From contig NZ_JANCTC010000016.1 of assembly GCF_024297145.1 (NCBI RefSeq), positions 1-64,000 on the forward strand: a stretch of DNA of 64,000 nt, written 5' to 3'. Within the stretch, counting starts at the first letter, position 1. Each line of letters starts with the position of its first letter. Made by a program: the position numbers and the translations under genes. The notes beneath the pieces are model-generated. The model had not been told where the DNA came from and ran no database searches. It was given only the letters and a program-made list of their open reading frames with translations. This stretch comes from Mesorhizobium sp. LMG 17147 (GTDB lineage Bacteria > Pseudomonadota > Alphaproteobacteria > Rhizobiales > Rhizobiaceae). Positions 1,247 through 28,919 of the stretch are shown here, in pieces.

Positions 1247-2077
1247 CTATCGCTTCAGACCACCCATGAACGCCTTTACTCGAGCAGAGTCGACCTGGTT
1301 CCACCAGACGCCGTCGTGCTTCAGCGCGCTGGCGATGATGACCCCGTCGACAATGGCGAGGATATCCTTGGCATTGTCCGCCGTGACACCGCTTCCGACC
1401 AGCGTCGGCAGGCCGGCGGCCTGCTTGATCATGCTTATGTAGCCCAAATCCGCGGCGTGGCCGGTGCGCTGGCCGGTCGCGATGATGGCATCGGCATCGA
1501 AGAAGACCAGATCCTTGACTAGTTCCTCCACCGGACGGTCGGCGACGATGGCATGTGCGCCGTGTTTGACATGGGCATCGGCGAAGATGCGAATGCCGTT
1601 GGCGCGCAGCCTGGCGCGGTAGCGCGCCGCGCGGCCCGACTCGCCTTCGACAAAACCCTCATTGGCGACATAGGCGTTCGCCCATTGATTGACGCGGACG
1701 AAACCGGCGCCGGCAGCGGCGGCGATCGCCAAAGCCGGGATCGCGGCATTGGCCAGCACGTTGATGCCGACCGGTCTGCCGAGCTCGCGGCGGATGCGGT
1801 CGGAAACGACCGCCATATAGGCCGCCGTCTCCGGCCCGATATCGTCAGGCTTGGCGAAAGGGATGTCGCCATGGTTCTCGACGATGACGCCGTCGCAGCC
1901 GCCGTCGAGATAGGCTTTGGCGTCATCGAGCCCGCGCTGGTAGATCACCTCCACGGCCTCGCCGTCATAGCGCGGCGCGCCGGGCAGGGGCGCCAGGTGA
2001 ACGACGCCGATCACTACCTTGGTGCGGCCGAAAAGGTGCAAGAGTGCGTCGCCGCCGGATTGGCCGATCTGGGTCAT
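1247..2077 (-). CDS. BtpA/SgcQ-family TIM-barrel protein
   Basis: A 276-residue protein of the BtpA/SgcQ family (PF03437). Visible signatures are VIGVVHLAPLPGAP near residue 22, the DGVIVENHGDIPF run near residue 62, and the late ATGQRTGHAAD and LVGSGVTADN stretches expected of a phosphate-binding TIM barrel. The family's reaction is poorly defined; SgcQ lies in an enterobacterial sugar operon. Here it is the last gene of a transport and catabolic operon and overlaps the PfkB kinase stop by 4 bases. A role on a phosphorylated sugar is inferred. Confidence 0.85.
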   Translation of the reverse strand: MTQIGQSGGDALLHLFGRTKVVIGVVHLAPLPGAPRYDGEAVEVIYQRGLDDAKAYLDGGCDGVIVENHGDIPFAKPDDIGPETAAYMAVVSDRIRRELGRPVGINVLANAAIPALAIAAAAGAGFVRVNQWANAYVANEGFVEGESGRAARYRARLRANGIRIFADAHVKHGAHAIVADRPVEELVKDLVFFDADAIIATGQRTGHAADLGYISMIKQAAGLPTLVGSGVTADNAKDILAIVDGVIIASALKHDGVWWNQVDSARVKAFMGGLKR

Positions 2078-2982
2078 GAGAGCTCCATTTGATCGATGAG
2101 CACCGCCATCTCGGAGGCGGAAGGACAGGATGCCAGCGTGCCCGGCCGTGTCACGGCAATTGCGGCGGCCGCCAGCGCAAGCTCCAGCGCCGAGGTGACC
2201 AACATGCCCCGCGCAAGCCCGCCGGCGAGACAGCCGCAGAACACATCGCCGGCGCCGCTGGTGTCGAGCGCCTCGACCTGCGGCGCCGGCAAACGAAGCG
2301 GCTCTTCCTGACCCGGGCCAAGCACGAGACAGCCTGCGGCGCCGAGCGTGATGATGACGGTGCCTGCACCTTTGGCCACCAGCGCGCCGGCGGCTGCTGT
2401 CATGTCATCGCGGCCGGTCAGGGTTTTCGCCTCGGATTGGTTGACAACCAAAAACTCCGCCAGGCCAAGATCGGGAACGGATGCCGCATCGATCGGACTG
2501 GCGTTGAGAACGGTGCGTGCGCCGTTTTCCTTTGCTGCTCTGAGGCTGGTATCGGTCGCGGCGGCACGCAAATTTCCTTGGCAGACGAGGAGGTCGCCGG
2601 GAGCGATCCAGCGGACAAGTGCTGTTTGCGCCACCGGATCGAACGCTTCGCTGCAGGCAACGCCGCTGACAATGAAATTCTCGCCGCCTCGATCGACGAC
2701 GATGGTCGAGCGGTCGCTCGGCAGCTCGAATTCGCTGACCTCGAGGTCTGACAGTTCCCTGTCGAGGCGGCTCCTGATCCATGTGCCTTCGCGGTCCTTG
2801 CCGAGCGCCGTCCAGAACGTCACCTCTGCACCAGTCCGCGCTGCTGCGACCGCTTGGTTGGCACCCTTGCCGCCGAGCCCGTCGGCATAGCTCACGGCAT
2901 TCAAAGTCTCGCCCGCGGCAGGGAGGCGGCCGACGCGAAACATGGTATCGATGCAGGCATTGCCGACGACATGGACATGCAT
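2074..2982 (-). CDS. PfkB-family carbohydrate kinase (ribokinase-like)
   Basis: A 302-residue PfkB-family kinase. The N-terminal GGKGANQAVAAARTGA motif and the C-terminal DTSGAGDVFCG motif carry the sugar-binding glycines and the catalytic Asp with its anion hole. It phosphorylates a sugar or nucleoside with ATP in the cytoplasm, and the exact substrate cannot be read. It lies 3 bases downstream of the GATase1-like gene and overlaps the BtpA-like gene, so it belongs to the same minus-strand operon. It probably activates the imported compound or the product of the phosphotriesterase-like enzyme. Confidence 0.9.
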   Translation of the reverse strand: MHVHVVGNACIDTMFRVGRLPAAGETLNAVSYADGLGGKGANQAVAAARTGAEVTFWTALGKDREGTWIRSRLDRELSDLEVSEFELPSDRSTIVVDRGGENFIVSGVACSEAFDPVAQTALVRWIAPGDLLVCQGNLRAAATDTSLRAAKENGARTVLNASPIDAASVPDLGLAEFLVVNQSEAKTLTGRDDMTAAAGALVAKGAGTVIITLGAAGCLVLGPGQEEPLRLPAPQVEALDTSGAGDVFCGCLAGGLARGMLVTSALELALAAAAIAVTRPGTLASCPSASEMAVLIDQMELS

Positions 2983-2985
2983 GGC

Positions 2986-3756
2986 TCAGCTCTCGCCGGT
3001 CGCCCAGCCCAGCATCTGTTCGAACAGGGTCTTGTAGCCTGGCCAGGCGATGAATTGCGGCGGCAGCCAATGCGGCCCGACATCGGATGTCCAGGCCACG
3101 GTGCGGCCCTTGCCGTAATGGCCGGTGACAAGCAGCGGCAGCGAACCATAATCCGACGATACGCTGGCCAGAACTTCCGCATCGTCCTTCAGTGTCACCT
3201 CGTTGAAGCCTAGCAGGATCGGCCAGTCCGAACCGAGGCCCCTGAGGATAGGATGGGTCGACCCTGGTTTCGGCACCGGGGCAAAGCCTTCGGGAACCTC
3301 GACGCGGTCGTCGTAGGCCAGGCAGTTCACCGGCAGCACGTCCTCGATTGCGGTCTTGCGGTAGCGCGCGCCGCCATTGATGCCCTGGAAGCTGTAATAA
3401 CCGCCGAACATCAACAGACCGCCGCCGTCGCTGACGTAATCGCGGAGCAGGCGCAGGCGGTTCGGCGTCGGCTTGGAGTGGACCCAGGTGTCGGGATGCA
3501 GCAGAAGCGTGTTGGCGCCAATGTCGGAGAGCACGACCGCGTCATAGGCCGACAGCGCCTCCATCGTCTGAGGAAAGCCGCGCTGCGCCTCATGCGCCGG
3601 CATGAAGGTGACGTCGAAATCGCTCGCCTTGAGCGCGCCCAGCAATTCGTCGGCGCCGGTGTGATAGGTGACAGTCGGGAACTGGTCGAAACCCTTGATG
3701 TGGGTCGCGGTCGACACCCAGGATTCGCCGGCAAGCAGGATCTTCTTCTTGGACAT
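2986..3756 (-). CDS. GATase1-like (DUF1355-type) protein
   Basis: 256 residues with the class I glutamine-amidotransferase-like fold signature KKILLAGESWVSTATHIKGFDQF at the start and a GGGLLMFGGYYSFQG nucleophile-elbow region near residue 115. The position expected for the catalytic Cys carries Tyr-Tyr-Ser, so ordinary glutaminase chemistry is unlikely. Proteins of this family often sit in sugar catabolic operons with unknown roles. It lies between the phosphotriesterase-like gene and the PfkB kinase. Family assignment is good and the function is unknown. Confidence 0.75.
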   Translation of the reverse strand: MSKKKILLAGESWVSTATHIKGFDQFPTVTYHTGADELLGALKASDFDVTFMPAHEAQRGFPQTMEALSAYDAVVLSDIGANTLLLHPDTWVHSKPTPNRLRLLRDYVSDGGGLLMFGGYYSFQGINGGARYRKTAIEDVLPVNCLAYDDRVEVPEGFAPVPKPGSTHPILRGLGSDWPILLGFNEVTLKDDAEVLASVSSDYGSLPLLVTGHYGKGRTVAWTSDVGPHWLPPQFIAWPGYKTLFEQMLGWATGES

Positions 3757-3774
3757 TTGAACTCCGTCGTAAGT

Positions 3775-4872
3775 CTAGGCCGCTTGGAGCCGCGCGAACA
3801 CGCTCTTCGGATTGGCGATCAGCATGCGGTCGATGGCCGCCTGTTCGACGCCATGCCGTTTCAGGCGCGGTATGAAATGCTTTAGGATATAGCCATAGCC
3901 GAAGCCGCCGAAGCGCGTCAGCATGATCTTGAGGAACACATCCTGCGACAATAGCAGGCGGTCGCCGAAGCCGGCCTCGACAAGGGCGGCGATGGCGCGT
4001 GCGTTCTCCTCGTCGGAGGGCGATTGCGCGTCCTGGTCGGCATAATAATAGTCCATGCCGATCATGTCGTATTCGAGGAACGCGCCGCGCCGGGCGAGGC
4101 TTTTCTGGTAATCGGGATCGTCGTGGCTCGGGTTCATGTGGCAGAGCACCGTGTGGCGGAGATCGGCGCCCTCGGCCTCGACGATATCGAGCACGTCGTG
4201 CGCCAGCCGCTCCCAGCCAGGTAGATGGATCGACAACGGCACGCCGGTGATGCGCGAAGCGCGCGCCGAAGCTCGCAGCGACTTGCGTTCCTCGGCGGTG
4301 AAATCCTTGCTGACGCCGACCTCGCCGATCAGCCCGGCCATGATCGGCGGCTGCGTCTCGCCGCCGCCGACATCGTTGACGATGAACTCGGTCACGGCGT
4401 CGACATCCATGGCCTTCAGCCATTCGGGATGGGTATGCTCGAGATAGAACCCGGTGCCCATGACGATCTTGAGGCCGGACATGCGGCTAATGCGGGCGAG
4501 CTTTTCGGGGTCACGGCCGATCCCGATATTGGTGGCGTCGACGACGGTGTGGCCGCCCAGCGCGCGATAGCGCTGCAGTTCCGACAGCGCCAGGTCGGCG
4601 TCGTCGAGCGAGACATTGTCGCGGTTGACGTAAGGGTTCATGCGCAATTCGCCGATGATCTCGATGTTCACCGGCTGCTCGGCGATCGCCATGTCATTGG
4701 GATGGCAGGGGCATTTCCAGCTGCGCGCGCCGTCGAGCAGTATGTGCTCGTGCATCAGCGTTATCCCCATCTCCTCGACCGGAACCGGGCCGAGCACGGT
4801 CATCACTTGGCCGGTTTCGACCCCGATTGGCAACCGCTGCCTGGGCGCTGCGTCATCGAACAGACCACTCAT
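3775..4872 (-). CDS. Phosphotriesterase-family metal hydrolase
   Basis: 365 residues of the amidohydrolase superfamily, PTE branch. The HEH pair (His41, His43), the GEVG segment around residue 200 (Glu in place of the carboxylated Lys of classical PTE), later His residues in LSIHLPGW and VLCHMNPSHDD, and a late SQDVFLK Asp form a binuclear metal site. Members include lactonases and sugar-lactone hydrolases. In this sugar operon, lactone or ester hydrolysis is more likely than organophosphate hydrolysis, but that is inferred. The permease gene ends 4 bases upstream. Confidence 0.85.
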   Translation of the reverse strand: MSGLFDDAAPRQRLPIGVETGQVMTVLGPVPVEEMGITLMHEHILLDGARSWKCPCHPNDMAIAEQPVNIEIIGELRMNPYVNRDNVSLDDADLALSELQRYRALGGHTVVDATNIGIGRDPEKLARISRMSGLKIVMGTGFYLEHTHPEWLKAMDVDAVTEFIVNDVGGGETQPPIMAGLIGEVGVSKDFTAEERKSLRASARASRITGVPLSIHLPGWERLAHDVLDIVEAEGADLRHTVLCHMNPSHDDPDYQKSLARRGAFLEYDMIGMDYYYADQDAQSPSDEENARAIAALVEAGFGDRLLLSQDVFLKIMLTRFGGFGYGYILKHFIPRLKRHGVEQAAIDRMLIANPKSVFARLQAA

Positions 4873-4876
4873 CGGC

Positions 4877-5881
4877 TCAACGGCTCCGCACGGCGCCGCG
4901 GAACAGGCGGAAGTTCAGCCAGATGGCGATCAGGATGATCGTTCCGGTGACGATCGGCGTCAGGAAGGGCGACAGATGCGCCAGGATCAGGCCGTTGCCG
5001 ATGACGGCCACGGTCAGCGCGCCGAGCACCGTGCCGATGATCGTTCCACGGCCGCCGAACAGGCTGGTGCCGCCGAGCACGACGGCGGCGATGACTTCCA
5101 GCTCGAAACCCTGTCCGGCATTTGAAGATCCCGATCCAAGCCGGGCAGCAATGATGATGCCGGCAAGGGCCGCCGCGGTGGCGGAAATCACATAGACGAA
5201 GAGCGTCGTCTGCCGCGTGTTGACGCCGGCACGCCGCACCGCCTCGGCGTTGGCGCCGATGCCGGTGACATAGCGGCCGAACGGCGTCTCGTTGAAGGCA
5301 AGATAGGCGATGGCCAGGATCGCCAGCGCGATCAGCGCCGGCACCGGCACGCCAAGAAACCAGGCGCGGCCCAGCACGGTGAAAGCGCTTCCGGGCTCGA
5401 TCGGGATGGAATAGCCGCCGGTGATCAGCAGCGCCACGCCCCGGATCACCGAAAGCCCGGCAAGCGTGACGATGAAGGACGGGATGCCCTCATAGGCGAC
5501 GAAATAGCCCTGCACCGCGCCAAGCAGGGCACCGAGCGCGAGCATCACGAGGATAACGACTGGCCACGGCAGGCCAAACTGCAAAAGTGTCGCCGACAGC
5601 GTCGCCACCAGCGCCAGCACGGAGCCGACCGAAAGATCGATGCCGCCGGTGGTGATGACGAAAGTCATTGCCGCGGCAACGATCAGCAGCGGCGCCGACT
5701 GCCGCAGGATGTTCAACAGATTGGGCGATGTCAGAAAGGCATCGGTCGCAACCGAGAAGATGATGCAGACGACCAGAAAGAACAGCGCGATCGAGACGAC
5801 ACTGCCATTGGCAAGCAGCGCATCGCGCCAGGTGCCCTTGCGTACACGTGAGGGCTGGGCGGCGTGGATCGCGTCGCTCAT
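4877..5881 (-). CDS. CUT2-type sugar ABC transporter permease (RbsC-like)
   Basis: A 334-residue, very hydrophobic membrane protein of the RbsC/FrcB group. It has a cytoplasmic N-terminus, about ten predicted helices, the GGIDLSVGS loop near residue 82 and the conserved late GGTSLFGGRGTIIGT segment that contacts the ATPase. It forms the membrane channel of the importer with the ATPase and binding protein encoded upstream. The start overlaps the ATPase stop by 4 bases. The imported compound is unknown but is probably a pentose, polyol or nucleoside. Confidence 0.92.
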   Translation of the reverse strand: MSDAIHAAQPSRVRKGTWRDALLANGSVVSIALFFLVVCIIFSVATDAFLTSPNLLNILRQSAPLLIVAAAMTFVITTGGIDLSVGSVLALVATLSATLLQFGLPWPVVILVMLALGALLGAVQGYFVAYEGIPSFIVTLAGLSVIRGVALLITGGYSIPIEPGSAFTVLGRAWFLGVPVPALIALAILAIAYLAFNETPFGRYVTGIGANAEAVRRAGVNTRQTTLFVYVISATAAALAGIIIAARLGSGSSNAGQGFELEVIAAVVLGGTSLFGGRGTIIGTVLGALTVAVIGNGLILAHLSPFLTPIVTGTIILIAIWLNFRLFRGAVRSR

Positions 5882-6687
5882 GCCGGCGCTCCCCCGCGGT
5901 AGCCGTTGGTGGCGGAACGCGCACTGAACTTGCGGCCGACGATCAGATTGACCACGTCCTCGATGTTGGTCTCGCCGATCAGCCGCTCGGCTACGTTGCG
6001 CCCTTCGTACATGACCTGGATGCGGTCGCAGACGAGGAACAGATCCTGCAGCCGGTGGGTGATCAGGATGACGCTGACACCGCGCGCACTGACCGCACGG
6101 ATCAGTTCGAGCACCGCCTCGACCTCGGCCACGGCAAGCGCTGCCGTCGGTTCGTCCATGATCAGCACGGCCGGCTCGAAGGAAGCGGCGCGGCCGATCG
6201 CGATCGACTGGCGCTGCCCGCCGGAGAGGTTTTCGACCTTGAGTCGCGTGTCGGCAATGACGATGCCGAGCCGATCGAGCATCTGGCGCGTCTCGTCATG
6301 CATGCGCTTTTTGTCGAGAAAGGAAATGCCTGCGATGCGGCGGCGCGGCTCGCGGCCGAGAAACAGATTGCCGGCGACGTCGACCGTGTCGCACAGCGAC
6401 AGGTCCTGGTAGACCATCTCGACGCGCGCCGCACGTGCGTCCGCCGGCGAGCTGAAGATCACCGGCTTGCCGTCGATTTCGATGGTGCCGGCGTCGGGAA
6501 CCACGGCCCCCGACAGCACCTTGCTCAATGTTGATTTGCCGGCGCCATTGTCGCCGACCAGCCCCAGCACCTCGCCCGGCTTCAGCGTCAGCGATACGTC
6601 ATCGAGCGTCTGGATGGCGTTGTAGCGCTTTGAGATGCCGCTCATCCGCACCCGATAGGTCTGGCCACTGCTCATCTGAGATTCCAC
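5878..6687 (-). CDS. Sugar ABC transporter ATP-binding protein (single domain, FrcA-like)
   Basis: 269 residues with one nucleotide-binding domain: Walker A GDNGAGKST near residue 45, signature LSGGQRQSIAIGRA, Walker B VLIMDEPTAAL and the H-loop LITHR. CUT2 ATPases such as RbsA usually carry two such domains. The single-domain form resembles rhizobial FrcA and should act as a homodimer. GTG at 6687 is the longest start, and ATG at 6675 is an equally good alternative. It lies between the binding-protein and permease genes. Confidence 0.92.
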   Translation of the reverse strand: MESQMSSGQTYRVRMSGISKRYNAIQTLDDVSLTLKPGEVLGLVGDNGAGKSTLSKVLSGAVVPDAGTIEIDGKPVIFSSPADARAARVEMVYQDLSLCDTVDVAGNLFLGREPRRRIAGISFLDKKRMHDETRQMLDRLGIVIADTRLKVENLSGGQRQSIAIGRAASFEPAVLIMDEPTAALAVAEVEAVLELIRAVSARGVSVILITHRLQDLFLVCDRIQVMYEGRNVAERLIGETNIEDVVNLIVGRKFSARSATNGYRGGAPA

Positions 6688-6702
6688 GCGATTGCAAGGT
6701 GC

Positions 6703-6731
6703 CCGCGGCGCAGCCTCAGGCGGCGCCGCGG
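6703..6731 (-). terminator. Intercistronic stem-loop between binding-protein and ATPase genes
   Basis: A perfect 9-bp stem (CCGCGGCGC at 6703-6711 with GCGCCGCGG at 6723-6731) and an 11-base loop lie in the 62-base gap after the binding-protein gene. There is no clear T-run, so partial termination or mRNA 3-prime protection is more likely than full termination. The same arrangement follows other binding-protein genes in the window. Confidence 0.6.
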
Positions 6732-6749
6732 CCCGGTCGCCGACGCAGT

Positions 6750-7688
6750 TTACTTGAACATCGCGCGGTATTGGTCGACATTCTTCTTGGTCACGATCGT
6801 CACCGGGATGTTGATGATCGGATCGATTTTCTCGCCCTTCTTGAGCTTGCCCAGCGCTTCGACGGCAGCCTTGCCTTCGCCGGCTGGATCCTGCTGCACG
6901 ACCGCGACCACCCAGCCGTCGTCGATGCCCTGAACGGCCTGCTTGGTCAGATCCCAGCCGAATACCTTGACGTCGCCGGTGCGGCCCTGGCTGGTCACGG
7001 CCGAAACTGCGCCGAGCAAGGCTGGTTCGCCGGTTGCATAGAGCGAGTTCATGTCCGGATTGGCAGTCATCAGGTTTTCCGAAGCGCTCAACGCGGTCTC
7101 CTGAACGTTCTGGCCGTCGACCGTGTCAAGGAAGGTGACGGCCTGGCCGCTTTCGGTCACCGCCTTCTTGAAGCCGTCGAGCCGCTGGTTCTGGATGAAT
7201 GAATTGAGTGCGCCCACGATACCGATCTTGGCCTTGCCGCCCATCTCGGTCTTCACATAGTCGGCGTAGAATTTGCCGATGTCCTCGCCGGCCTTGGTGT
7301 TGTCGACGCCGATGAACGAAATATTGTCGCCGTCGGGGATCTGCGCGTCGATGGCTATGACGGGAATGCCGGCCGCTTTGGCTGCGGTGATCGCAGGCTT
7401 GACGCCGTTGACGTCGATGGCGACTAGAATGATGCCGTCGACTTTCTGCGTGATGTAGTTCTCGATCGCGTCGTTCTGCGCGCTCGGCACATTATTGGCG
7501 TTGAAAATGACCAGCTTGGCGCCGGCGGCGTCGGCTGCCTTTTGCGCGCCCTCGTTGATCTGGTTGAAGAACAGGGCCTGCTGGTTGATGTTGACGAGAG
7601 CGAACGTATCGGCAAGCGCCGAGCCCATGGCTGCCGAGCCCATGGCAACGGCGGCGGCACAGCCGGCGAGAAGTTTGAACAGACGCAT
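6750..7688 (-). CDS. Periplasmic sugar-binding protein of CUT2 importer (RbsB-like)
   Basis: 312 residues with a Sec signal peptide (MRLFKLLAGCAAAVAMGSA, cleavage probably after ALA near residue 26) and a Peripla_BP_4 fold. Visible segments are the early FFNQINEGAQKAADAAGA, the IENYITQKVDGIILVAID run, and the late FGWDLTKQAVQGIDDGWVVAVVQQDP that packs against the ligand. It captures the sugar and hands it to the permease encoded downstream. It is the first structural gene after the XRE-cupin regulator and is followed by a strong stem-loop. Confidence 0.92.
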   Translation of the reverse strand: MRLFKLLAGCAAAVAMGSAAMGSALADTFALVNINQQALFFNQINEGAQKAADAAGAKLVIFNANNVPSAQNDAIENYITQKVDGIILVAIDVNGVKPAITAAKAAGIPVIAIDAQIPDGDNISFIGVDNTKAGEDIGKFYADYVKTEMGGKAKIGIVGALNSFIQNQRLDGFKKAVTESGQAVTFLDTVDGQNVQETALSASENLMTANPDMNSLYATGEPALLGAVSAVTSQGRTGDVKVFGWDLTKQAVQGIDDGWVVAVVQQDPAGEGKAAVEALGKLKKGEKIDPIINIPVTIVTKKNVDQYRAMFK

Positions 7689-7757
7689 TTCGGTTCCCCT
7701 TGCTTGCGGACCAGACGTCGGCCGGTCCCGTTGGTGCTACAGGCACGAGGCAACCAT

Positions 7758-7782
7758 TCAAGAGACTTGAATATTTGTCAAT
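7758..7782 (-). promoter_or_regulatory. Putative promoter with palindromic operator for the 6750-7688 operon
   Basis: Read on the minus strand, TTGACA at 7782-7777 is a consensus -35 box about 90 bases upstream of the binding-protein start. Directly after it lies a perfect 15-base palindrome, TTCAAGAGACTTGAA (7758-7772), where the -35/-10 spacer would be. That is the usual place for a repressor or dual-regulator site. The XRE-cupin protein encoded just upstream is the natural candidate to bind it. No strong -10 is visible. Confidence 0.5.
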
Positions 7783-7804
7783 CCAAATGAAGGCCGAGCG
7801 TTGC

Positions 7805-8431
7805 TCAGAAAGTCGCCGGCGTATTGACCCAGAAAATGCTGGCGCGGTCCTCGCCGATGTTGCGGTAATGATGCGGCAGCTCCGACCTGAACACGAAGGC
7901 ATCGCCCGTGGCGAGAGCATGGCTCTTGCCGTCGACGATCAACTCGATCCGGCCGGCGAGCACATAACCGACTTCCTCGCCGGAATGCTGGATCGGACCT
8001 TCGCTCGAGCCCTCCGCCTCGATGTGATGGATGTTGCATTGTAAAAGGTGGCCAGGCGAATATGGAATGATGCGTTCGAGCGAAATTCCTTCGCCGCGCC
8101 GTAGCGTGTCGAGCGCAATCAAAGGCCTTGCGCCCGCCCGGAATACGATCGCCTCGTTGTCGTCGACTTGCTCGAACATCCAGCCGATGTTGGTGCCGAG
8201 GACCTCGACCAGACGGTGAAGCATGGGCAGGGACGGCGAAGCCTTACCGTTCTCGATCTTGGACAGCAGGCTTTCCGAGCAATTTGCAGCAGCGGCCAGG
8301 GTCTTCAGTGTCATGCCGCGTGTCTGGCGGGCGAGACGCAGCCTAGTTCCAAGTCTCGCGGCATTTACGGTGGCGTCCGTTTCTGACTCTGGCCGCTGTC
8401 GATCGATCTTGTTCATCTGTTCGCCAACCAT
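7805..8431 (-). CDS. XRE-family regulator with C-terminal cupin sensor domain
   Basis: 208 residues. Residues about 25-85 form an XRE helix-turn-helix (LGTRLRLARQTRGMTLKTLAAAANCSESLLSKIENGKASPS region), and about 130-205 a small cupin barrel (HSGEEVGYVLAGRIELIVDG, then SELPHHYRN). Such regulators sense a small catabolite through the cupin and control adjacent transport genes. It lies upstream of, and in the same direction as, the CUT2 operon. A later ATG at 8416 is a possible alternative start. Confidence 0.9.
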   Translation of the reverse strand: MVGEQMNKIDRQRPESETDATVNAARLGTRLRLARQTRGMTLKTLAAAANCSESLLSKIENGKASPSLPMLHRLVEVLGTNIGWMFEQVDDNEAIVFRAGARPLIALDTLRRGEGISLERIIPYSPGHLLQCNIHHIEAEGSSEGPIQHSGEEVGYVLAGRIELIVDGKSHALATGDAFVFRSELPHHYRNIGEDRASIFWVNTPATF

Positions 8432-9741: not shown

Positions 9742-10767
9742 TCAAAGCCCGCAATTATATCGCGTATGGACAAGGATCTGGGAGTGCGCGGGTTCGGCCG
9801 TGACGCCGTTGAGATTGTCCTTGATCCAGCGAGTGGCTGCGGCAAGCTCGCTAGCGAAATCGTGCGAAATCACATAATCCATGATGCCTGCCTCGAGCAG
9901 GTTACGGGAATGGTTCGTCAGTTCGTGGCCAACGAATACCGTCTCGTGCGCCTTGCCGGCTATCTCCAGAGCCTTTGCCACGCCCCGGTTCGCTCCCGCC
10001 ACATTGTAGATTGCGGCAGGGTGACCATTTGCCTCGAAATAGCGCGTCAGCTGCTCGCAGGTGGTTTCGGGTCGGTCATCCGAGATCACGCGCTCTTCGA
10101 TCTTCAGATAGGGGAAATCGGAGCGAAGTACCCTGCGGAAGCCCATCTCCCGCTCCTGCTGGCAACGAAACGGCACGCTCATGACGATCAAGATATCGTC
10201 GCGTTCCATCGGCAGGGCGTTGCCGATCAATAGGGCAGCGACACTGCCTGCGGCATATTGATCGTTGCCGACATAAATGGAGCGGCGCGAACTCGGCAGA
10301 TCTGTGGTCAGGCACACGACTGGGATTCCGATGGTCCGCAGCTTGCGAATCGCGCGGTTGATAGCCGGATGTTCACGCGCGATGATCACCACGCCATCCA
10401 TTCCCTCGCCGCGCTGCTCGATCTGCCGCGCGAATGAGGCGGGTTCAACCTCGCTGGTGCTCACATAGACTCCGTTGATCTCTATGCTTGCTAGCGTGCG
10501 ATTGACCTCTGCGGCGGCCGAGGCCATCGCCGCGTTGAAGGTCTCGCCGGAGTCGCACATCAGCAGGATGCGGAGCGGGACGTCGCGTTCCTTGCTTTCG
10601 CTGCGGAGCTTTTCCAGAGCCGCCACAACGCGCGCTCTTGTCCTGTCCCGCACCCCGCTGCGGTTATTCAGGACCCTGTCCACTGTGGCGGGGCCTACCC
10701 CGGCAAGCGCGGCAATGTCCTGGACCGTAGGGCCTTTCCAAAGCCTTCCTGGGGTGCTGTCGGTCAT
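9742..10767 (-). CDS. LacI-family transcriptional regulator
   Basis: About 341 residues. The N-terminal LacI helix-turn-helix reads TVQDIAALAGVGPATVDRVLNN, followed by a hinge and a Peripla_BP-like sensor domain (INGVYVSTSEVEP, EGMDGVVIIAREHPAI, DDILIVMSVPF). ATG at 10767 is preferred over one at 10782 because GGGAGG lies just upstream of it. It is divergent from the CUT2 operon starting at 10970. Two LacI-type palindromes occupy the gap, so it very probably represses that operon and itself in a sugar-dependent way. Confidence 0.92.
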   Translation of the reverse strand: MTDSTPGRLWKGPTVQDIAALAGVGPATVDRVLNNRSGVRDRTRARVVAALEKLRSESKERDVPLRILLMCDSGETFNAAMASAAAEVNRTLASIEINGVYVSTSEVEPASFARQIEQRGEGMDGVVIIAREHPAINRAIRKLRTIGIPVVCLTTDLPSSRRSIYVGNDQYAAGSVAALLIGNALPMERDDILIVMSVPFRCQQEREMGFRRVLRSDFPYLKIEERVISDDRPETTCEQLTRYFEANGHPAAIYNVAGANRGVAKALEIAGKAHETVFVGHELTNHSRNLLEAGIMDYVISHDFASELAAATRWIKDNLNGVTAEPAHSQILVHTRYNCGL

Positions 10768-10783
10768 CGCCGCCTCCCACATC

Positions 10784-10800
10784 TGATGCGAAACGCATCA
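10784..10800. promoter_or_regulatory. LacI-type operator O1
   Basis: Perfect inverted repeat TGATGCGAAACGCATCA, with 7-bp arms around AAA, directly upstream of the divergent lacI-like gene. Arm and spacer geometry fit LacI-family operators. A near copy lies 92 bases away at 10876-10892. Confidence 0.75.
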
Positions 10801-10875
10801 TTCGGGAAAGTTGCGCTGCTCGCAAGCGCAATGTTCTGAATAGCTTGTGCCACCTTTGTGCCCTGCAGCAAATTT

Positions 10876-10892
10876 TGATGCTATACACATCA
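10876..10892. promoter_or_regulatory. LacI-type operator O2
   Basis: TGATGCTATACACATCA matches the 10784 site at 14 of 17 positions and keeps the TGATG and CATCA arms. It lies about 80 bases upstream of the binding-protein start at 10970. The two sites are nearly nine helical turns apart, compatible with repressor looping. Confidence 0.65.
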
Positions 10893-10969
10893 CGAAGAGC
10901 TCATCATGCTCCTTGAATGATGTTATTTCAATCGGGATACTTGCCTCGTCAAACGAGGGAGGAGCCCCT

Positions 10970-12001
10970 ATGTATATCAAGAAATTGGCAATGCTTTCGG
11001 CCGTGCTCGCCGCCAGCGTGATTGCAGGCACAGCGGATGCGCAGGACAGCGGCAAGCACTACCGCTTCGTCATGGTCTCGCATATCGGATCGAACGATCC
11101 GAACATGAATTGGCTGACGCTGTCGCTGAAGGAGTTCGAGAAGAAATATCCGAACGTGAAGACGGAATACATCTCGACCAACAACTATTCGGTCCAGGAG
11201 CATGTCCGCCTTCTCGAGCAGGCAATCGCGACGCATCCCGACGGCATCGCGGTGCCGATCGTGAGTTCGGACGCATTCGAAGGACCGCTGCGCAAGGCGA
11301 TCGACGAAGGCATCCCGGTCGTTGCCTTCAACATTCCCGACAGCCGGCCAGCCGGCGAGCGCATTCCCTACCTGACCTATGTCGGCGGTGATGAATACCT
11401 GACGGGCAAGAAGCTCGGCGAATACGCGATCGAGCAGGCCAAGGAAGGCAAGATTCCGCAGCCCAAACACGTGGTCTGCGCCAGCCATGATTCCGCCCAC
11501 CAGGGTCTCAAAGCCCGCTGCAAGGGCATGAAGGATGCGATGGCGGCTGTCGGCGCCAAGTTCGACGAGCTGTTCATCGGTGCCGAGCCGGCCGGCGCAC
11601 GCAACGCGCTGCAATCGTTCCTGCAGGCCAATCCGGACACGAACTATGTCTTCACCGTGGCCGGCTGGTCGGCACCCTGGGCTTGGAGCGTTGCCAACGA
11701 GATGAAGCTCGATCCAGATGTCGACGATAAGGGCATGACCATCCTGACGGTCGACGAGGGCCCAGTCTCGATCGAGGGCGTCCGCGCCGGCCACCTTCTG
11801 GCGACCAACAGCCAGGGCTTCTGGCTGCAGGGCTACGCGCCGATGGAGTGGCTCTACTGGAACAAGGAGTTCGGCTACGCGCCGCAGAGCGACATCCTGA
11901 CCGGCCCCGTCATCATCAACAAGGACAATGCCGATCAATGGGCCAAGCAGGTCCGCGTCGTGTTCGGCGACAAGGCCTACGACGAGCAGAACACCTGGTA
12001 A
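10970..12001 (+). CDS. Periplasmic sugar-binding protein of CUT2 importer
   Basis: 343 residues. The start at ATG 10970 is set by the GAGGGAGGAG ribosome-binding site just before it and by the signal peptide MYIKKLAMLSAVLAASVIAG cleaved after ADA. The mature protein has the Peripla_BP_4 order: an N-terminal FVMVSHIGSNDPNM strand, ATHPDGIAVPIVSSDAF, then FTVAGWSAPWAWSV and LTVDEGPVSIEGVRAGHLLATNSQ near the ligand hinge. It delivers an unknown sugar or polyol to the two permeases downstream. Inositol is a candidate because an IolG-like gene follows. A terminator-like hairpin follows immediately. Confidence 0.92.
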   Translation: MYIKKLAMLSAVLAASVIAGTADAQDSGKHYRFVMVSHIGSNDPNMNWLTLSLKEFEKKYPNVKTEYISTNNYSVQEHVRLLEQAIATHPDGIAVPIVSSDAFEGPLRKAIDEGIPVVAFNIPDSRPAGERIPYLTYVGGDEYLTGKKLGEYAIEQAKEGKIPQPKHVVCASHDSAHQGLKARCKGMKDAMAAVGAKFDELFIGAEPAGARNALQSFLQANPDTNYVFTVAGWSAPWAWSVANEMKLDPDVDDKGMTILTVDEGPVSIEGVRAGHLLATNSQGFWLQGYAPMEWLYWNKEFGYAPQSDILTGPVIINKDNADQWAKQVRVVFGDKAYDEQNTW

Positions 12002-12016
12002 GGGTTCCTCCCGAGA

Positions 12017-12056
12017 GGGGCGGCCGAGTTCCTCGGGGAGTGGCCGCCCCTTCTTT
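12017..12056 (+). terminator. Attenuating terminator after binding-protein gene
   Basis: GGGGCGGCC at 12017-12025 pairs with GGCCGCCCC at 12042-12050, followed by TTCTTT. This is a strong 9-bp GC stem with a T-rich tail in the gap between the binding-protein gene and the first permease. Because the operon continues, it probably gives partial termination and excess binding protein. Confidence 0.75.
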
Positions 12057-12097
12057 ATCCGCTTACAGCGGGTCCCGGAACAGCGGAACAAAACTGA

Positions 12098-13054
12098 ATG
12101 AAACACCTTGTTCGCAGCCAGGGTATTGGCGCGGTCATCGGCGTCGCGGTCATGCTTGCCGTCTTTACGCTTCTCGACTTTTCGGGCTGGTGGACGGTTC
12201 AGACCGTGTCGAACGTGACCCAGTTTGCATCCATCCTCGCCTTCGTCACGATGGGCGAGGCACTGGTCATCATGACCAAGGAAATCGACCTGTCAGTGGG
12301 TTCGGTTTACGGGCTGGCGGGCGTTTCCTTCATCACCCTGGAGCCACCGCTTGGCGTCTCCGGTTCGCTGCTCGTGGCGCTTCTCATTGCGGCGCTTGCC
12401 GGCCTGGTCCAGGGCGTTGCCGTGGTCAAGGGGCAGTTGCCGTCAATGATCGTAACCCTGGGCGGCCTCTTCACCGCGCGCGGCATCATCTATGTCTGGA
12501 CGGGCGGATCAGTGCACAATTTCTCTCCCGACGCGCGCGCTCATCCTCTTACCCGTTTGCTCGGCGGAGAGCTGTTTGGGATCGAAGCTGCGACCTTCTG
12601 GCTGATCGCGATTGCAGCGCTTCTCGGCCTGCTGTTGTGGGCAACGCCGTTTGGAAACCGACTGCTTGCGACCGGGGGCGGGCGCGAAAGCGCCGAATCG
12701 CGAGGCGTTCGGACCGAAAGGGTCAAGATCGTCACTTTCGTACTCTGCTCGCTGCTGGCTGGCTTCGCCGGCATCCTGACCTTGTGCAACCAACCGCAGA
12801 CCCACGTGACGCTTGGCGAGAACATGGAGCTTGAGGCAATCTCCGCTGCGGTCATCGGCGGCTGTCTGCTCACCGGCGGGCGCGGGTCGATCCTGGGCGC
12901 CATCCTGGGCGCACTCATCGTGGTGAGCTTCCGCTATGAGCTGATTGCGCTTGGTGCGCCATCGTCCTGGTACATCACTTTCGTCGGCGTCGTGCTCGTC
13001 GCGGCGGTCATCTTCAATCAGAGCCTGGCCCGGCGCCTCGGGCACAGCGTTTGA
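12098..13054 (+). CDS. CUT2-type ABC permease, first of two
   Basis: 318 residues, RbsC-like, about eight to ten hydrophobic helices. The KEIDLSVGSVYGLAG loop lies near residue 65 and the ATPase-contact segment GGCLLTGGRGSILGA near residue 250. It is distinct in sequence from the second permease encoded two genes on, so the channel is probably a heterodimer. It begins about 40 bases after the hairpin and overlaps the region of the ATPase start. Confidence 0.92.
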   Translation: MKHLVRSQGIGAVIGVAVMLAVFTLLDFSGWWTVQTVSNVTQFASILAFVTMGEALVIMTKEIDLSVGSVYGLAGVSFITLEPPLGVSGSLLVALLIAALAGLVQGVAVVKGQLPSMIVTLGGLFTARGIIYVWTGGSVHNFSPDARAHPLTRLLGGELFGIEAATFWLIAIAALLGLLLWATPFGNRLLATGGGRESAESRGVRTERVKIVTFVLCSLLAGFAGILTLCNQPQTHVTLGENMELEAISAAVIGGCLLTGGRGSILGAILGALIVVSFRYELIALGAPSSWYITFVGVVLVAAVIFNQSLARRLGHSV

Positions 13055-13071
13055 CACGGGAGCGCGGCCGA

Positions 13072-13848
13072 ATGACGAACGATCATCCTCTCATCCAGGT
13101 CAAGAACCTCGACCTTTATTTCGGCGCCTTCCATGCGCTCAGGAACGTCTCCGTCGACTTCCACGCAGGTGAGTTGGTAGGTCTCGTCGGCGACAACGGC
13201 GCCGGCAAGACGACGCTGATCCGTGTCCTATGCGGCATTCATGCGCCAACTTCCGGGGAGGTCTTCTTCGATGGCAGGAAGGTTGAGAAGTTCCATCCCA
13301 AGCTCGCCATAGATCAAGGCATCGAGACCATCCAACAGTCGGTGGGACTTTGCGACAATCTGTCGATCGCCCGCAATTTCTATCTCGGGCGGGAGCCGGT
13401 GAAGCGCATCCTCGGCATTCCCTTTCTGGATTTCGCGCTGATGCGCGAGAAATCGGCCCGCGTCATCCGGCAGTTCGGACTTCGCGACAACGTATCTACT
13501 GACGATGAGGTGGAACGCCTGTCGGGCGGTGAGCGCCAGTCGGTCAAGATCGGTCGGGCGGTCGAATTCAAGAACCGCGTCGTCATCATGGACGAACCGA
13601 CCAATCACCTGTCGGTGCGCGAACGCGAACACGTCAACGAGCTTGCCGTGCAGCTCAAGGAACAGGGCCTGCTAGTGATCTACATCACCCACGACATCTT
13701 CCAGGTCCACAAGCTCGCGGACCGCATCGTCATCATGGAGAACGGCGCGAAGGTCGCCGACGCGTCCACCGATGCGATGACGGCCGAGGAGCTGGAGGAA
13801 GTCATCCGTCAGGGCGGCCGCGTGGTCGAGAAGCGGGAGACGGCCTGA
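13072..13848 (+). CDS. Sugar ABC transporter ATP-binding protein (single domain)
   Basis: 258 residues from ATG 13072, chosen because GGGAG lies about ten bases upstream; a TTG at 13051 would extend it. It has a single nucleotide-binding domain: GDNGAGKTT Walker A, LSGGERQSVKIGRA signature, VVIMDEPTNHLSV Walker B and an intact YITHD H-loop. The NHLS after the DEPT is unusual for sugar importers, which normally read AALG. It lies between two permease genes and ends overlapping the next start. Confidence 0.92.
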   Translation: MTNDHPLIQVKNLDLYFGAFHALRNVSVDFHAGELVGLVGDNGAGKTTLIRVLCGIHAPTSGEVFFDGRKVEKFHPKLAIDQGIETIQQSVGLCDNLSIARNFYLGREPVKRILGIPFLDFALMREKSARVIRQFGLRDNVSTDDEVERLSGGERQSVKIGRAVEFKNRVVIMDEPTNHLSVREREHVNELAVQLKEQGLLVIYITHDIFQVHKLADRIVIMENGAKVADASTDAMTAEELEEVIRQGGRVVEKRETA

Positions 13849-14822
13849 TGGCAATGTCGGCCGCCAAACCCCTGATACGGCGTAATGCCGAGATCGGTAT
13901 CTTCCTGATCGGCGCGCTCCTGGTCATCCTATTCGCGTCGACCTCGGATGGCCGATGGGCCAACCTCTACAACGTCGGGACGATCGTCCAGGTGACGGCC
14001 ACACTTGGCCTGATGAGCCTGGGGGTGGCGCTGGTCATCGGAACGGGCGAGATCGACATTTCCGTGGGCTCGACGTTTGGCATGGGCGCGCTGGCCTATC
14101 TATGGCTCGCAGCACATGTCGATCCGCTGGCCGCAGCCGCCGCCGCGATCATCGTGGGTGCGGCCATAGGCCTACTGAATGGGCTGCTCGTGACCCGGAC
14201 CGGCACGCCGTCCCTCATCGTTACGCTTGGGACGCTAATGATCTTTCGAGGCATTGCAATCGCGCTGACCGAGGGGTTCTCATTCTCCATTCCTTATGCC
14301 GCGCGCAAGGGATGGAGCTATTTCCTGCTCGGCGGTGACGATTTCCTCGACTTCAACACCGCACTCTACTGGCTGATCGCCGTAGTCGCCGTCCTACTGG
14401 CGATGTTGAAGGCGACGCCTTTCGGCAACCGGCTGCTCGCCGTCGGCGGATCGGCAGAAAGCGCTCACTCCCGTGGCGTCCGCGTCGGCCGCATCAAGTT
14501 GTCCGCGTTCGTCCTGTGCGGCATGCTGGCGGCGTTCGCCGGCACGCTCGAGGCCGGCAAGCTCGGTTTCGCGGACGGGTCGATGGGTCGTCTCATGGAA
14601 TTGCAGGCAATCGCCTCTTGCGTGCTTGGCGGGTGCGTGCTGGCCGGCGGCCGCATATCGCTTCTTGGCGCGCTGATGGGAGCCTTCGTGCTGTCGTCCA
14701 TCCAATCGTATCTCGTCGTCATGGGCGTGCAGCCGCAATGGTTCGTGCTGATCCTCGGGGTGATCGTGGTACTCGCGGCATATGGCGACAAGTCTCTTCG
14801 CCAGTGGGCCCTCAAAAGATGA
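13848..14822 (+). CDS. CUT2-type ABC permease, second of two
   Basis: 324 residues, RbsC-like, with the loop GTGEIDISVGSTFGMGAL near residue 65 and a late GGCVLAGGRISLLGALMG coupling segment. Its start overlaps the ATPase stop (TGATG). Two different permeases flanking one ATPase suggests a heterodimeric channel, unlike the homodimer typical of RbsC. Cytoplasmic-membrane location follows from the hydrophobic helices. Confidence 0.92.
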   Translation: MAMSAAKPLIRRNAEIGIFLIGALLVILFASTSDGRWANLYNVGTIVQVTATLGLMSLGVALVIGTGEIDISVGSTFGMGALAYLWLAAHVDPLAAAAAAIIVGAAIGLLNGLLVTRTGTPSLIVTLGTLMIFRGIAIALTEGFSFSIPYAARKGWSYFLLGGDDFLDFNTALYWLIAVVAVLLAMLKATPFGNRLLAVGGSAESAHSRGVRVGRIKLSAFVLCGMLAAFAGTLEAGKLGFADGSMGRLMELQAIASCVLGGCVLAGGRISLLGALMGAFVLSSIQSYLVVMGVQPQWFVLILGVIVVLAAYGDKSLRQWALKR

Positions 14823-14832
14823 AAGCAGCAGC

Positions 14833-15855
14833 ATGACCGTTAGAGTTGCGATCGTTGGGGCCGGCATCATGGGGGCCGACCATGCCCGGATCGTGGCAGA
14901 GGAGTTGCCCGGCGCAACCTTGCAGGTCGTGTGCGACGCCTCACCCGAGCGGGCGAGGACCGTGGCGCAGGAACACGGCGCGGGCGACGTCACCACGGAT
15001 CCGGTCGCGACCATCAGGCGTGGCGACATTGATGCCGTAATCATCGCAAGCCCCGACGACACACACGCGCCCTTGTCGCTGGCCGCCATCGAGGCCGGCA
15101 AGCCCGTGCTTTGCGAAAAGCCACTGTCGCAGGACCCGAACGAATGCCTTCATGTGATCGAGGCCGAGGTCGCGCGCGGCCGACGTTTCGTCCAACTCGG
15201 CTTCATGCGCCGCTTCGATCCCTCCTACCGCGAGCTGAAGGCGATGCTGGACGATGGCTCGCTTGGTCGCGCGATCATGATGCACAACTTCCACCGCAAC
15301 GTGGAGGCTCCGGCGAACTTCACCGGTCAGATGGCCGTCACCAATTCGGCCCCGCACGAGTTCGACGTGGCCCGCTTTGTGCTCAGCACCGACTACAAGG
15401 CAATCTCCGTCTTCCAGCCTTCGGTTGTCGATACCATGAAGACCGGCGCGCCGGTTTTCATGGTGCTCGAGACGGACAAGGGCCAGCTCGTCAACATCGA
15501 GATCAACAACAATGCCGCCTATGGTTACGACGTTCGTGGCGAGCTCGTCGGCGAGAAAGGATCGGTCCTTCTGAATGCGCCCGTCTACACGCGCCGCAAC
15601 GATCGGTTCATGGCATACGAACGGTATGCCCCCGACTGGCGGCCGCGTTTCGCGGAAGCCTACAGACTTCAGGACAAGGCGTTCCTGGAATTCGTCCGTT
15701 CTGGCGTGTTTCCGACGGTCGCGGCCGACGCCTGGGACGGCTACTGCGCCGCGCGGGTGGCTGAAGCGGGAATCGAGGCGCTCGCGACCGGCGCGCGCGT
15801 CGGCATCACGATGGAGGCCAGGCCGGATCTGTATCGACGATCGAAGCTGCCATGA
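14833..15855 (+). CDS. Gfo/Idh/MocA oxidoreductase, inositol 2-dehydrogenase-like
   Basis: 340 residues from ATG 14833. An N-terminal Rossmann fold (VAIVGAGIMGADHARI) is followed by the family hallmark VLCEKPLSQDPNE near residue 95, with the catalytic-area Lys. Later segments are GFMRRFDPSYRELK and NSAPHEFDVARFVL, the latter with the HEFD motif of MocA/IolG-type enzymes. It oxidises a sugar or cyclitol with NAD(P). With a TIM-barrel isomerase downstream, myo- or scyllo-inositol catabolism is plausible but unproved. The next gene overlaps its stop (ATGA). Confidence 0.9.
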   Translation: MTVRVAIVGAGIMGADHARIVAEELPGATLQVVCDASPERARTVAQEHGAGDVTTDPVATIRRGDIDAVIIASPDDTHAPLSLAAIEAGKPVLCEKPLSQDPNECLHVIEAEVARGRRFVQLGFMRRFDPSYRELKAMLDDGSLGRAIMMHNFHRNVEAPANFTGQMAVTNSAPHEFDVARFVLSTDYKAISVFQPSVVDTMKTGAPVFMVLETDKGQLVNIEINNNAAYGYDVRGELVGEKGSVLLNAPVYTRRNDRFMAYERYAPDWRPRFAEAYRLQDKAFLEFVRSGVFPTVAADAWDGYCAARVAEAGIEALATGARVGITMEARPDLYRRSKLP

Positions 15856-16193
15856 AGGCACCTGTTGCTCCAGCAGTGTCGCGGTCATGCTTGGCAAGAG
15901 TTGCAGAGGCTTCAGCTAACCGACAGCCGCCCGAGGACATGGCGGCCCTGAAGCAGTGGATAGCCCGCAATTCATCCACCTTTTCCACGGTGACGATCCG
16001 CATAGCCCGGTTCGCGCTGGAAAATCCGACCGAGGTGGCAATCGATAACGGCGCCGAGCTGGCCACTGCCGTCGGCGTTTCCCGCACCTCGATTAGCCGC
16101 TTTGCGTTGGCCTTGGGCTTCGAATGTCATGCGCAGCTTCGCAGCTTCTTTCAAAGAGAAGTCATATCGCGTCAAAAAAAGGATCTATCATGA
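15852..16193 (+). CDS. RpiR-type helix-turn-helix protein lacking the SIS domain
   Basis: 113 residues. Residues about 32-105 match the RpiR N-terminal domain: ALKQWIARNSSTFSTVTIRIARFALENP, then AELATAVGVSRTSISRFALALGF. Normal RpiR regulators are about 280 residues with a C-terminal sugar-isomerase (SIS) sensor, and here the frame ends directly after the DNA-binding domain. Both ends overlap neighbouring genes by 4 bases, so it is embedded in the operon rather than an obvious relic. It may bind DNA without a ligand sensor or antagonise a full-length paralogue. Confidence 0.75.
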   Translation: MKAPVAPAVSRSCLARVAEASANRQPPEDMAALKQWIARNSSTFSTVTIRIARFALENPTEVAIDNGAELATAVGVSRTSISRFALALGFECHAQLRSFFQREVISRQKKDLS

Positions 16194-18706: not shown

Positions 18707-18723
18707 CTTCGGTTCGTTTCGCC

Positions 18724-20085: not shown

Positions 20086-20140
20086 GACTTATCCTCGTTT
20101 CGGCTTGTCGCCCCGCACCCTGCGCCAGCACAGAGTGTTG

Positions 20141-21307: not shown

Positions 21308-21361
21308 CTCAACTACCTTTGCCTGAAAATGGTCAGCTAACGATGTTCTGGACTGGACATT

Positions 21362-22072: not shown

Positions 22073-22183
22073 GGCCGGCTCCCCATTTTAATACATACCT
22101 TGCCCGATATCACACACGGCTTTCGCAAACAATGTACGATTCTGCGCGTTGACAGGCAATCCATGATCTGAAAACGTACCAAG

Positions 22184-22228
22184 CGATCGAGAGGATACAC
22201 TGATCTGAAAGAAGCATCCTCGCGATCG
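22184..22228. promoter_or_regulatory. 13-bp inverted repeat in the leader of the CUT1 operon
   Basis: CGATCGAGAGGAT (22184-22196) and ATCCTCGCGATCG (22216-22228) are inverted copies with one mismatch and a 19-base spacer. They lie in the gap between the GntR gene and the binding-protein gene. It may be an operator for the GntR protein or an mRNA leader stem-loop. A consensus TTGACA at 22149-22154 could be the -35 box of the operon. Confidence 0.55.
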
Positions 22229-22280
22229 AAACGAGCAAGGACCGCTTTAGGGCGGCATGGGAGAACCAGGGAGGATACCT

Positions 22281-23759: not shown

Positions 23760-23769
23760 CCCAAGCCTG

Positions 23770-23803
23770 ACCGGCTGGGCCGATGGTCCAGCCGGTTCGT
23801 TCC
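23770..23803 (+). terminator. Intercistronic stem-loop after binding-protein gene
   Basis: ACCGGCTGG (23770-23778) pairs perfectly with CCAGCCGGT (23788-23796) across a 9-base loop, followed by TCGTTCC. It lies ten bases after the binding-protein stop and before the permease start at 23825. It probably causes partial termination or protects the upstream mRNA. Confidence 0.65.
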
Positions 23804-23824
23804 GAAGAATAAGGGCACCCCACA

Positions 23825-25671: not shown

Positions 25672-25681
25672 GGAGTTGCCG

Positions 25682-26779: not shown

Positions 26780-26811
26780 GATAGGGCGAATGCGCGTGGA
26801 ACGTGGGCTGG

Positions 26812-27975: not shown

Positions 27976-27997
27976 TTACATTCAATCGGAGTCCACA

Positions 27998-28747: not shown

Positions 28748-28919
28748 CTAGTAGACTACCTCGTGGCGGGCGGCAGAGCTTCTGGCGGCTTCGCCACGGT
28801 GCTCCCGCAGAGGAGGTACGTGGGCGGCGAAGTGCCGCTTGGAAGACGCCTTCCCAAAAAAGACAGTGCAGGCCGTGAATTGCGCCATGCATCGCCAACT
28901 CCCAAGCTGGCCCGGCCAC

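Follow-up and report, generated by a model that had tools for sequence, protein, structure and literature searches.

The first 64,000 nucleotides of contig NZ_JANCTC010000016.1 from Mesorhizobium sp. LMG 17147 (RefSeq assembly GCF_024297145.1), hereafter the window, contain a set of eight genes running from position 8431 to position 1247, all of which were confirmed on the minus strand by open reading frame (ORF) coordinates and Pfam. An original prediction had described this region as a catabolic operon that combines a hydrolase of the phosphotriesterase (PTE) family, a GATase1-like protein (GAT), a PfkB kinase and a BtpA/SgcQ-like protein with a CUT2 importer and an XRE-cupin regulator. The gene set was confirmed, as the coordinates matched, the Pfam scores were strong, the spacing was tight, and both the importer and the regulator were recognized by Pfam. 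The genes are as follows.

7805..8431, minus strand: regulator with an XRE-type helix-turn-helix (HTH) and a cupin domain, 208 aa (HTH_31/HTH_3 and Cupin_2)
6750..7688, minus strand: CUT2-type periplasmic substrate-binding protein, 312 aa (Peripla_BP_4)
5878..6687, minus strand: ABC ATPase with a single nucleotide-binding domain, 269 aa (ABC_tran)
4877..5881, minus strand: CUT2 permease, 334 aa (BPD_transp_2)
3775..4872, minus strand: PTE-family metal hydrolase, 365 aa (PF02126)
2986..3756, minus strand: GAT, 256 aa (PF07090, with matches of the AlphaFold2 (AF2) model)
2074..2982, minus strand: PfkB (ribokinase-like) sugar kinase, 302 aa (PfkB in Pfam; Q-G-N motif)
1247..2077, minus strand: BtpA/SgcQ-family protein, predicted (beta-alpha)8 barrel, 276 aa (PF03437; HisF/TrpA-like fold in the AF2 model)

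All Pfam matches lay far above the curated cut-offs, with 374 bits for GATase1_like (cut-off 27), 248 bits for BtpA (cut-off 30), 215 bits for PTE (cut-off 22.4), 153 bits for PfkB (PF00294, cut-off 25.8), and 193, 141, 113 and 66 bits for Peripla_BP_4, BPD_transp_2, ABC_tran and Cupin_2, respectively. From the ATPase gene to the BtpA gene, the successive intergenic gaps were -4, 4, 18, 3 and -4 bases, while larger gaps of 62 bases between the binding protein and the ATPase and of 116 bases after the regulator were present. Because of these short gaps and overlaps, the eight genes likely constitute a single operon. The Peripla_BP_4 binding protein, the BPD_transp_2 permease and the ATPase together make up a CUT2 importer. 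The solved structure closest to the binding protein was 5hsg (347 bits, the next one reaching 124 bits), and the ATPase aligned with the N-terminal half alone of the RbsA/AlsA models of about 500 aa. The regulator scored 77.5 bits against the PuuR model, below the cut-off of 211.

The gene neighbourhoods of relatives were compared by a genome scan with the GAT alignment. The nearest 80 of 586 confirmed loci (numbered with the prefix L) were kept, hence the counts describe near relatives and not a random sample, and a blastp comparison with 32 reference proteins served to name the neighbours. Seventy loci reached 5 kb or more ahead of GAT and 4.5 kb or more behind it, and the other ten were dropped from the counts. 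PTE stood immediately before GAT in 47 of the 70 under a strict adjacency rule, which misses L075, L081, L083 and L086, where PTE lies nearby; no PTE was called in L060. All 47 PTE-GAT loci contained the binding protein, the ATPase and the permease, 43 contained PfkB (none was called in L036, for example) and 44 contained BtpA, and the regulator was of the XRE-cupin type in 39 and of the LacI type in eight. The gene set, not always in the same order, was also seen in two genera of Enterobacterales (Pantoea, Klebsiella), two of Burkholderiales (Caballeronia, Pararobbsia), Palleronia (Rhodobacterales) and Inquilinus. Since the PTE-GAT adjacency is kept in 47 of 70 loci together with importer, kinase and BtpA, the comparison, which had been proposed along with the original prediction, confirmed at the level of gene order that the operon is a real, conserved catabolic set and no chance assembly. 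Outside the operon, seven ORF families recurred in at least four loci; these were recognized by eye as a LysR-type regulator, four ABC permeases, an aminotransferase and an HTH-PfkB fusion, of which the fusion alone is a clear pathway enzyme.

The same comparison brought one correction to the predicted gene set: 36 of the 47 PTE-GAT loci possess an amidase-type or TenA-like gene that is missing from the cluster in the window. A carbamoylase-type M20 enzyme was found in 32 of them, a TenA-like protein in four and a deacylase-type M20 enzyme in one, with one locus having two such genes. On plasmids of Rhizobium, Shinella and Aureimonas, a gene annotated as 'Zn-dependent hydrolase' ends the operon. 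The M20 protein of L003, the one tested, passed the hydantoinase/carbamoylase model TIGR01879 (386.7 bits, cut-off 204), and N-carbamoyl amino acid hydrolases are among the solved structures nearest to it. Eight residues were invariant in 12 of 12 aligned carbamoylase-type sequences (H83, D94, E129, H193, H385, N278, R291 and H292), of which we take H83, D94, E129, H193 and H385 to be metal ligands and N278 and R291 to be contacts of the substrate carboxylate in such M20 enzymes. Another M20 protein, ArgE/DapE-like, occurs in Pantoea, Klebsiella and Caballeronia. A second, LacI-regulated branch with a TenA-like protein comprises R. johnstonii (strain 3841 among others), Palleronia, Pannonibacter, Pantoea and Klebsiella. 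The TenA-like protein of L008 failed the thiaminase II equivalog model (44.2 bits, cut-off 130), no invariant cysteine was present across nine aligned TenA-like sequences, and the alignment with 1rtw placed Ala or Gly opposite the Cys of 1rtw and the invariant E137 opposite a Glu. These proteins presumably resemble the cysteine-free TenA type. As different types of C-N hydrolase appear within the same cluster, its gene content suggests that the substrate is probably nitrogenous.

The closest structures of the PTE-family hydrolase were 3k2g (434 bits), the PTE-related protein 9efa (231 bits) and Pmi1525 (3rhg, 230 bits). H41, H43, E184, H216, H245 and D311 were invariant in 11 of 11 PTE sequences, and we take these six positions to be metal ligands, partly from the alignment with PTER, the N-acetyltaurine hydrolase, and for the rest from the known ligands of the family. 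PTER belongs to the same branch, 9efa being the second-best match in the PDB, and its metal-binding His residues and bridging Glu match those of the window PTE in the alignment. For mouse PTER, R204, R233 and H300 are reported to be N-acetyltaurine contacts proposed by docking (PMC11374699). At these three places, the aligned window PTE has G219, P248 and F313. The mapping applies an offset of +7 to this stretch of chain 9efa, a choice supported by E169, R204, R233 and H300 then meeting E, R, R and H; the N-terminal His pair needs +3, so a short insertion in between sets the chain apart from mouse PTER. N-acetyltaurine hydrolysis by the window PTE was rejected on account of these three replacements at the docking-proposed contacts.

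The AF2 model of GAT had a mean confidence (pLDDT) of 89.3 with a weak loop at residues 16-28. In VIA-align, it matched first the structures of its own family, 2gk3 (Z 35.0), 3soz (Z 34.1) and 3rht (Z 28.8), followed by ThuA-like proteins at Z 16-18 (1t0b with 18.2), by IFT52 at Z 16-17 and by domains of GH42 type at Z 13-16. No invariant Cys was found at the expected nucleophile turn in alignments of 17 and 30 sequences. Instead, G118-G119-Y120, invariant in 17/17 and 30/30, follows right after strand 113-117 of the model. E11, D225 and H229 are further invariant residues of GAT. Judged from alignment and model, with the position of the elbow being our own reading, GAT would lack the catalytic cysteine of a class I glutamine amidotransferase.

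BtpA belongs to the BtpA/SgcQ family also according to TIGR00259 (230.8 bits, cut-off 153.4), and it failed the photosystem I biogenesis BtpA model NF045918 (195.4 bits, cut-off 400). Its AF2 model (pLDDT 79.9, weak stretch 172-177) gave HisF, HisA, TrpA and MJ1099 as the best folds among the matches listed (VIA-align Z 18.4-19.3, root-mean-square deviation 2.9-3.7 over 208-244 residues). BtpA is thus predicted to be a HisF/TrpA-like (beta-alpha)8 barrel, which is a statement on shared fold and not on function. In 26 aligned BtpA sequences, G228-S229-G230 and A249-S250 were invariant, a region that we assume to be the phosphate-binding place of such barrels. K171 was invariant in the same alignment, yet it is Glu in L101-L104; a Schiff-base aldolase lysine would therefore be no feature of the family. 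Because the best fold matches of BtpA include HisF and GAT is GATase1-like, a glutaminase-barrel pair of the HisH/HisF or PdxT/PdxS kind was considered. It was not adopted, as GAT lacks the cysteine of a glutaminase and is also found in loci without BtpA.

The company of both families elsewhere was inspected as well. A sugar or carbohydrate kinase gene was next to or near distant BtpA genes in four of five contexts. Three of these had FGGY kinases, with short-chain dehydrogenase/reductase (SDR) genes, DeoR regulators and CUT1-type importers nearby, and one had a 'carbohydrate kinase family protein' together with a ureidoglycolate lyase. The fifth BtpA was accompanied by genes for a PIG-L deacetylase, a sugar isomerase and Gfo/Idh proteins; a gene for tagatose-6-phosphate kinase lies 5 kb off, beyond an IS3 element. 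GAT was found in one kind of context with a RhaS/LsrB-like importer and an M20 deacylase, in another next to a nitrilase, and, in Rhodococcus, with PfkB, a luciferase-like monooxygenase and a flavin reductase. On the Ti plasmid pTi2788, a GAT 41% identical to that of the window stands with HyuA/HyuB, a SIS-domain protein and fructoselysine 6-kinase. In four loci (L083, L087, L093 and L100), the context with the RhaS/LsrB-like importer also holds a PfkB kinase fused to an N-terminal HTH, whose LacI domain was confirmed by Pfam in L083 only. In Kaistia, a PnrA-type binding protein lies near one GAT (L084), and an MR/MLE enzyme and a CUT1-type binding protein lie near another (L098); in Palleronia, a BMP importer and a nucleoside hydrolase are located just upstream of the operon. 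Agrobacterium albertimagni carries two GAT systems back to back (L083, 259-15844), the first in the order importer-PTE-GAT-PfkB-BtpA-TenA-M20 and the second consisting of a LacI-PfkB fusion, GAT, an importer and M20.

The PfkB kinase retained the catalytic Asp (GAGD), present in 70/70 aligned kinases, and failed the ribokinase equivalog model TIGR02152 (207.5 bits, cut-off 299.65). The window kinase and 3i3y have Q-G-N where the four ribokinase rows compared have Q-L-E or Q-N-E. The last letter of this motif over the 70 aligned kinases was N in 64, E in two (Proteus and Rhodococcus) and a gap in four (HTH-kinase fusions). The Glu of ribokinase at the Q-x-E position presumably contacts ribose. 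With a score below the ribokinase cut-off and Asn in place of Glu, plain ribose catabolism was rejected. The kinase was also the fastest-diverging gene of the operon, with a median identity to the window of 51.5% (L031-L068), versus 74-86% for the other seven genes; matches of 40% identity or less were left out of these medians.

A literature search among open-licence papers returned no characterised operon with the full gene set, in line with the earlier statement that the set matches no standard sugar pathway. The nearest cousin found is the four-gene Salmonella cluster rikA-stm3548-stm3549-stm3550, of PfkB-GAT-DMT-PTE type, described in 2026, for which the authors suggest a possible pathway with an unknown substrate (PMC13432705). 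There RikA is reported to phosphorylate ribose in vitro, the authors state that they found no functional studies of the other three genes, and they doubt the translation of an N-terminal extension of the kinase (PMC13432705). The cluster shares the PfkB kinase, the GATase1-like protein, PTE and a transporter with the operon of the window; however, the transporter is a drug/metabolite transporter (DMT) and not a CUT2 system, and the passages on it name no BtpA, M20 or TenA (PMC13432705). In the Proteus version of this locus (L017), the kinase ORF likewise has an N-terminal extension, DeoR HTH-like by eye, and the kinase keeps Glu at the position where Asn prevails in the alignment. Klebsiella pneumoniae (L106, on a 5.4-Mb record labelled plasmid) has TenA, BtpA, PfkB, binding protein, LacI, ATPase, permease, PTE, GAT and M20 together, but it differs in its LacI regulator and two divergent arms, and its annotation assigns no function. 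The kinase gene of L106 (4783-6407) is split by IS1 in this strain, and its two pieces match PDB 3i3y at 98.5% and 100%; hence 3i3y is in all likelihood the kinase of this locus. With the ribose operon (ribokinase RbsK), the operon of the window shares a CUT2 importer and a PfkB kinase of the ribokinase branch; it differs in the properties of the kinase given above, in the additional PTE, GAT and BtpA, and in its single-domain ATPase. The BtpA/SgcQ family also links it to the sgc locus of E. coli and to the BtpA of cyanobacteria, from which it differs in the neighbouring genes.

What was observed is which genes are present, how closely they are spaced and how well they are conserved, together with their fold classes and residue patterns. 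From this we infer reactions, step order, regulation and substrate, and tentatively read the operon as serving the catabolism of an imported nitrogen-containing glycoside, an N-glycoside or a nucleoside-like compound, to which we give somewhat less than an even chance. The CUT2 importer would bring the compound in. The PTE hydrolase would then cut an ester, lactone or cyclic-amide bond, GAT may help to handle the nitrogenous or glycosyl-amine part, and in most relatives the M20 carbamoylase/deacylase or the TenA-like protein would remove an N-carbamoyl, N-acyl or amine group. PfkB would phosphorylate the sugar part, after which BtpA, as a putative phosphate-binding barrel, would isomerise or cleave the phosphosugar for central metabolism. 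The XRE-cupin protein would repress the operon and sense an intermediate. This reading draws on the conserved set, on the C-N hydrolase-type genes of relatives, on GAT being elsewhere beside nitrogen-type hydrolases or importers and, repeatedly, PfkB kinases, on the nucleoside-transport neighbours, on BtpA standing beside sugar kinases, on the phosphate-binding fold matches, and on the reported ribose kinase activity of RikA. The original prediction had named a phosphorylated or lactonised sugar first and a nucleoside-like compound second. The latter gains some support from the carbamoylase-type M20 and TenA-like genes of relatives and the few nucleoside-transport neighbours, while the former falls back in view of the C-N hydrolases and the lactonase score given below.

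Several observations weigh against the glycoside reading. No M20 or TenA gene was present in the counted span of 11 of the 47 loci, namely nine Mesorhizobium loci of the window's own lineage (L021, L022, L024, L026-L030 and L096) as well as L070 and L074. The best M20 matches in the window genome, on other contigs, reached 40% and 32% identity, and a search for TenA elsewhere in that genome gave no match, an empty result that is weakly informative there. The nitrogen step may thus be dispensable or performed elsewhere. Loci L041, L044 and L068 keep PTE-GAT-M20 and are without PfkB and BtpA, which indicates that the two halves of the operon can part. Other neighbours of GAT are unrelated or point elsewhere (a NarK nitrate transporter, a ClcB chloride channel, an MR/MLE enzyme and a peptide importer), and the nucleoside-related neighbours in Kaistia and Palleronia are two single cases. 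Finally, no Rfam family, including the thiamin pyrophosphate (TPP) riboswitch, reached threshold in seven loci or in window positions 1-30000.

The lineage without M20 and TenA also fits the catabolism of a nitrogen-free sugar lactone or ester, in which PTE would open the lactone, PfkB would phosphorylate the acid or sugar, BtpA would act as an aldolase, and M20 and TenA would be hitch-hikers. We consider this rather unlikely. Some PTE relatives (Pmi1525 and the phospho-furanose lactonases) are lactonases or esterases, sugars are the usual cargo of CUT2 importers, and the neighbourhoods of the three distant BtpA genes with FGGY kinases, as listed above, agree with it. However, the window PTE reached 90.4 bits against the phospho-furanose lactonase model NF045706, whose cut-off is 630, and two M20 types and a TenA-like protein appear in different branches of the same cluster.

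The Ti plasmid relative suggests a further candidate substrate, a sugar-amine adduct of the Amadori or opine-like kind; GAT would then be the sugar-amine-handling protein shared by these systems. HyuA/HyuB, the SIS-domain protein and fructoselysine 6-kinase beside GAT on pTi2788 would be consistent with this, as would the PfkB or ribokinase genes that accompany GAT in several places. We regard it as improbable, as no annotated SIS-domain gene was seen in the ten PTE-GAT loci examined, whose gene tables are incomplete, and the pTi2788 GAT is distant in identity. A bolder form of the glycoside reading, rated as more doubtful still, would dedicate the operon to damaged or ring-opened nucleosides such as ribosyl-ureas and hydantoin ribosides, with PTE as a cyclic amidase, GAT as a cysteine-free glycosyl-amine enzyme and BtpA cleaving or isomerising a phosphosugar. 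Salvage or breakdown of the thiamin pyrimidine, with M20 as a YlmB-like deformylase, TenA as an aminopyrimidine hydrolase and PfkB as a kinase acting like that for hydroxymethylpyrimidine, was rejected as the main explanation and is the least probable of all, for although the TenA family and an M20 amidase occur together in L010, L083, L095 and Klebsiella L106 and would fit the YlmB/TenA/ThiD scheme, the TPP riboswitch is lacking over the span searched, the TenA-like protein of L008 lies far below the thiaminase cut-off, the nine aligned TenA-like sequences have no invariant cysteine, and the kinase is ribokinase-like with Phos_pyr_kin barely at the cut-off (27.8 versus 27).

The host, a bacterium of soil and plants, groups with Mesorhizobium, as its GAT shares 97% identity with the protein of Mesorhizobium sp. 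LSJC280B00. Of 146 genomes of the genus, 82 gave a match to GAT at E <= 1e-100, and 48 genomes had a copy of at least 85% identity, assigned to the operon type by identity alone. The remaining GAT places in the genus showed 58-62% identity, and the distribution is patchy. The window genome itself contains one BtpA and a second GAT, 41% identical, on another contig.

Beyond BtpA, a PIN-domain gene (820-1206, Pfam) is convergent with the end of the operon. On the other side, a second CUT2-type operon (9742-17149) comprises a divergent LacI regulator, a binding protein, a Gfo/Idh/MocA oxidoreductase, a xylose-isomerase-like barrel and, named by eye, two permeases and an ATPase. It is followed at 17507-30062 by a dense sugar-acid-type cluster with a CUT1-type binding protein, a RraA-like gene and five MR/MLE (enolase superfamily) genes in 13 kb.

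17507-18706, 18724-20085 and 20141-21307, minus strand: MR/MLE genes
26803-27975, plus strand: MR/MLE gene
28920-30062, minus strand: MR/MLE gene (matched by its C-terminal domain only)

The operon ties PF07090 and BtpA/SgcQ, two widespread families for which we found no assigned reaction in open-licence papers, to one testable pathway whose parts are known kinds of enzyme. Solved structures without an assigned role exist for relatives of the binding protein (5hsg), the kinase (3i3y), PTE (3k2g) and GAT (2gk3/3soz), and hence a single ligand identified for the binding protein could open up the complete pathway. If the pathway for ring-opened nucleosides were true, functions for two large orphan families would be obtained at once. 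If the substrate is nitrogenous, it would be a source of both carbon and nitrogen for rhizobia, Pantoea and Klebsiella.

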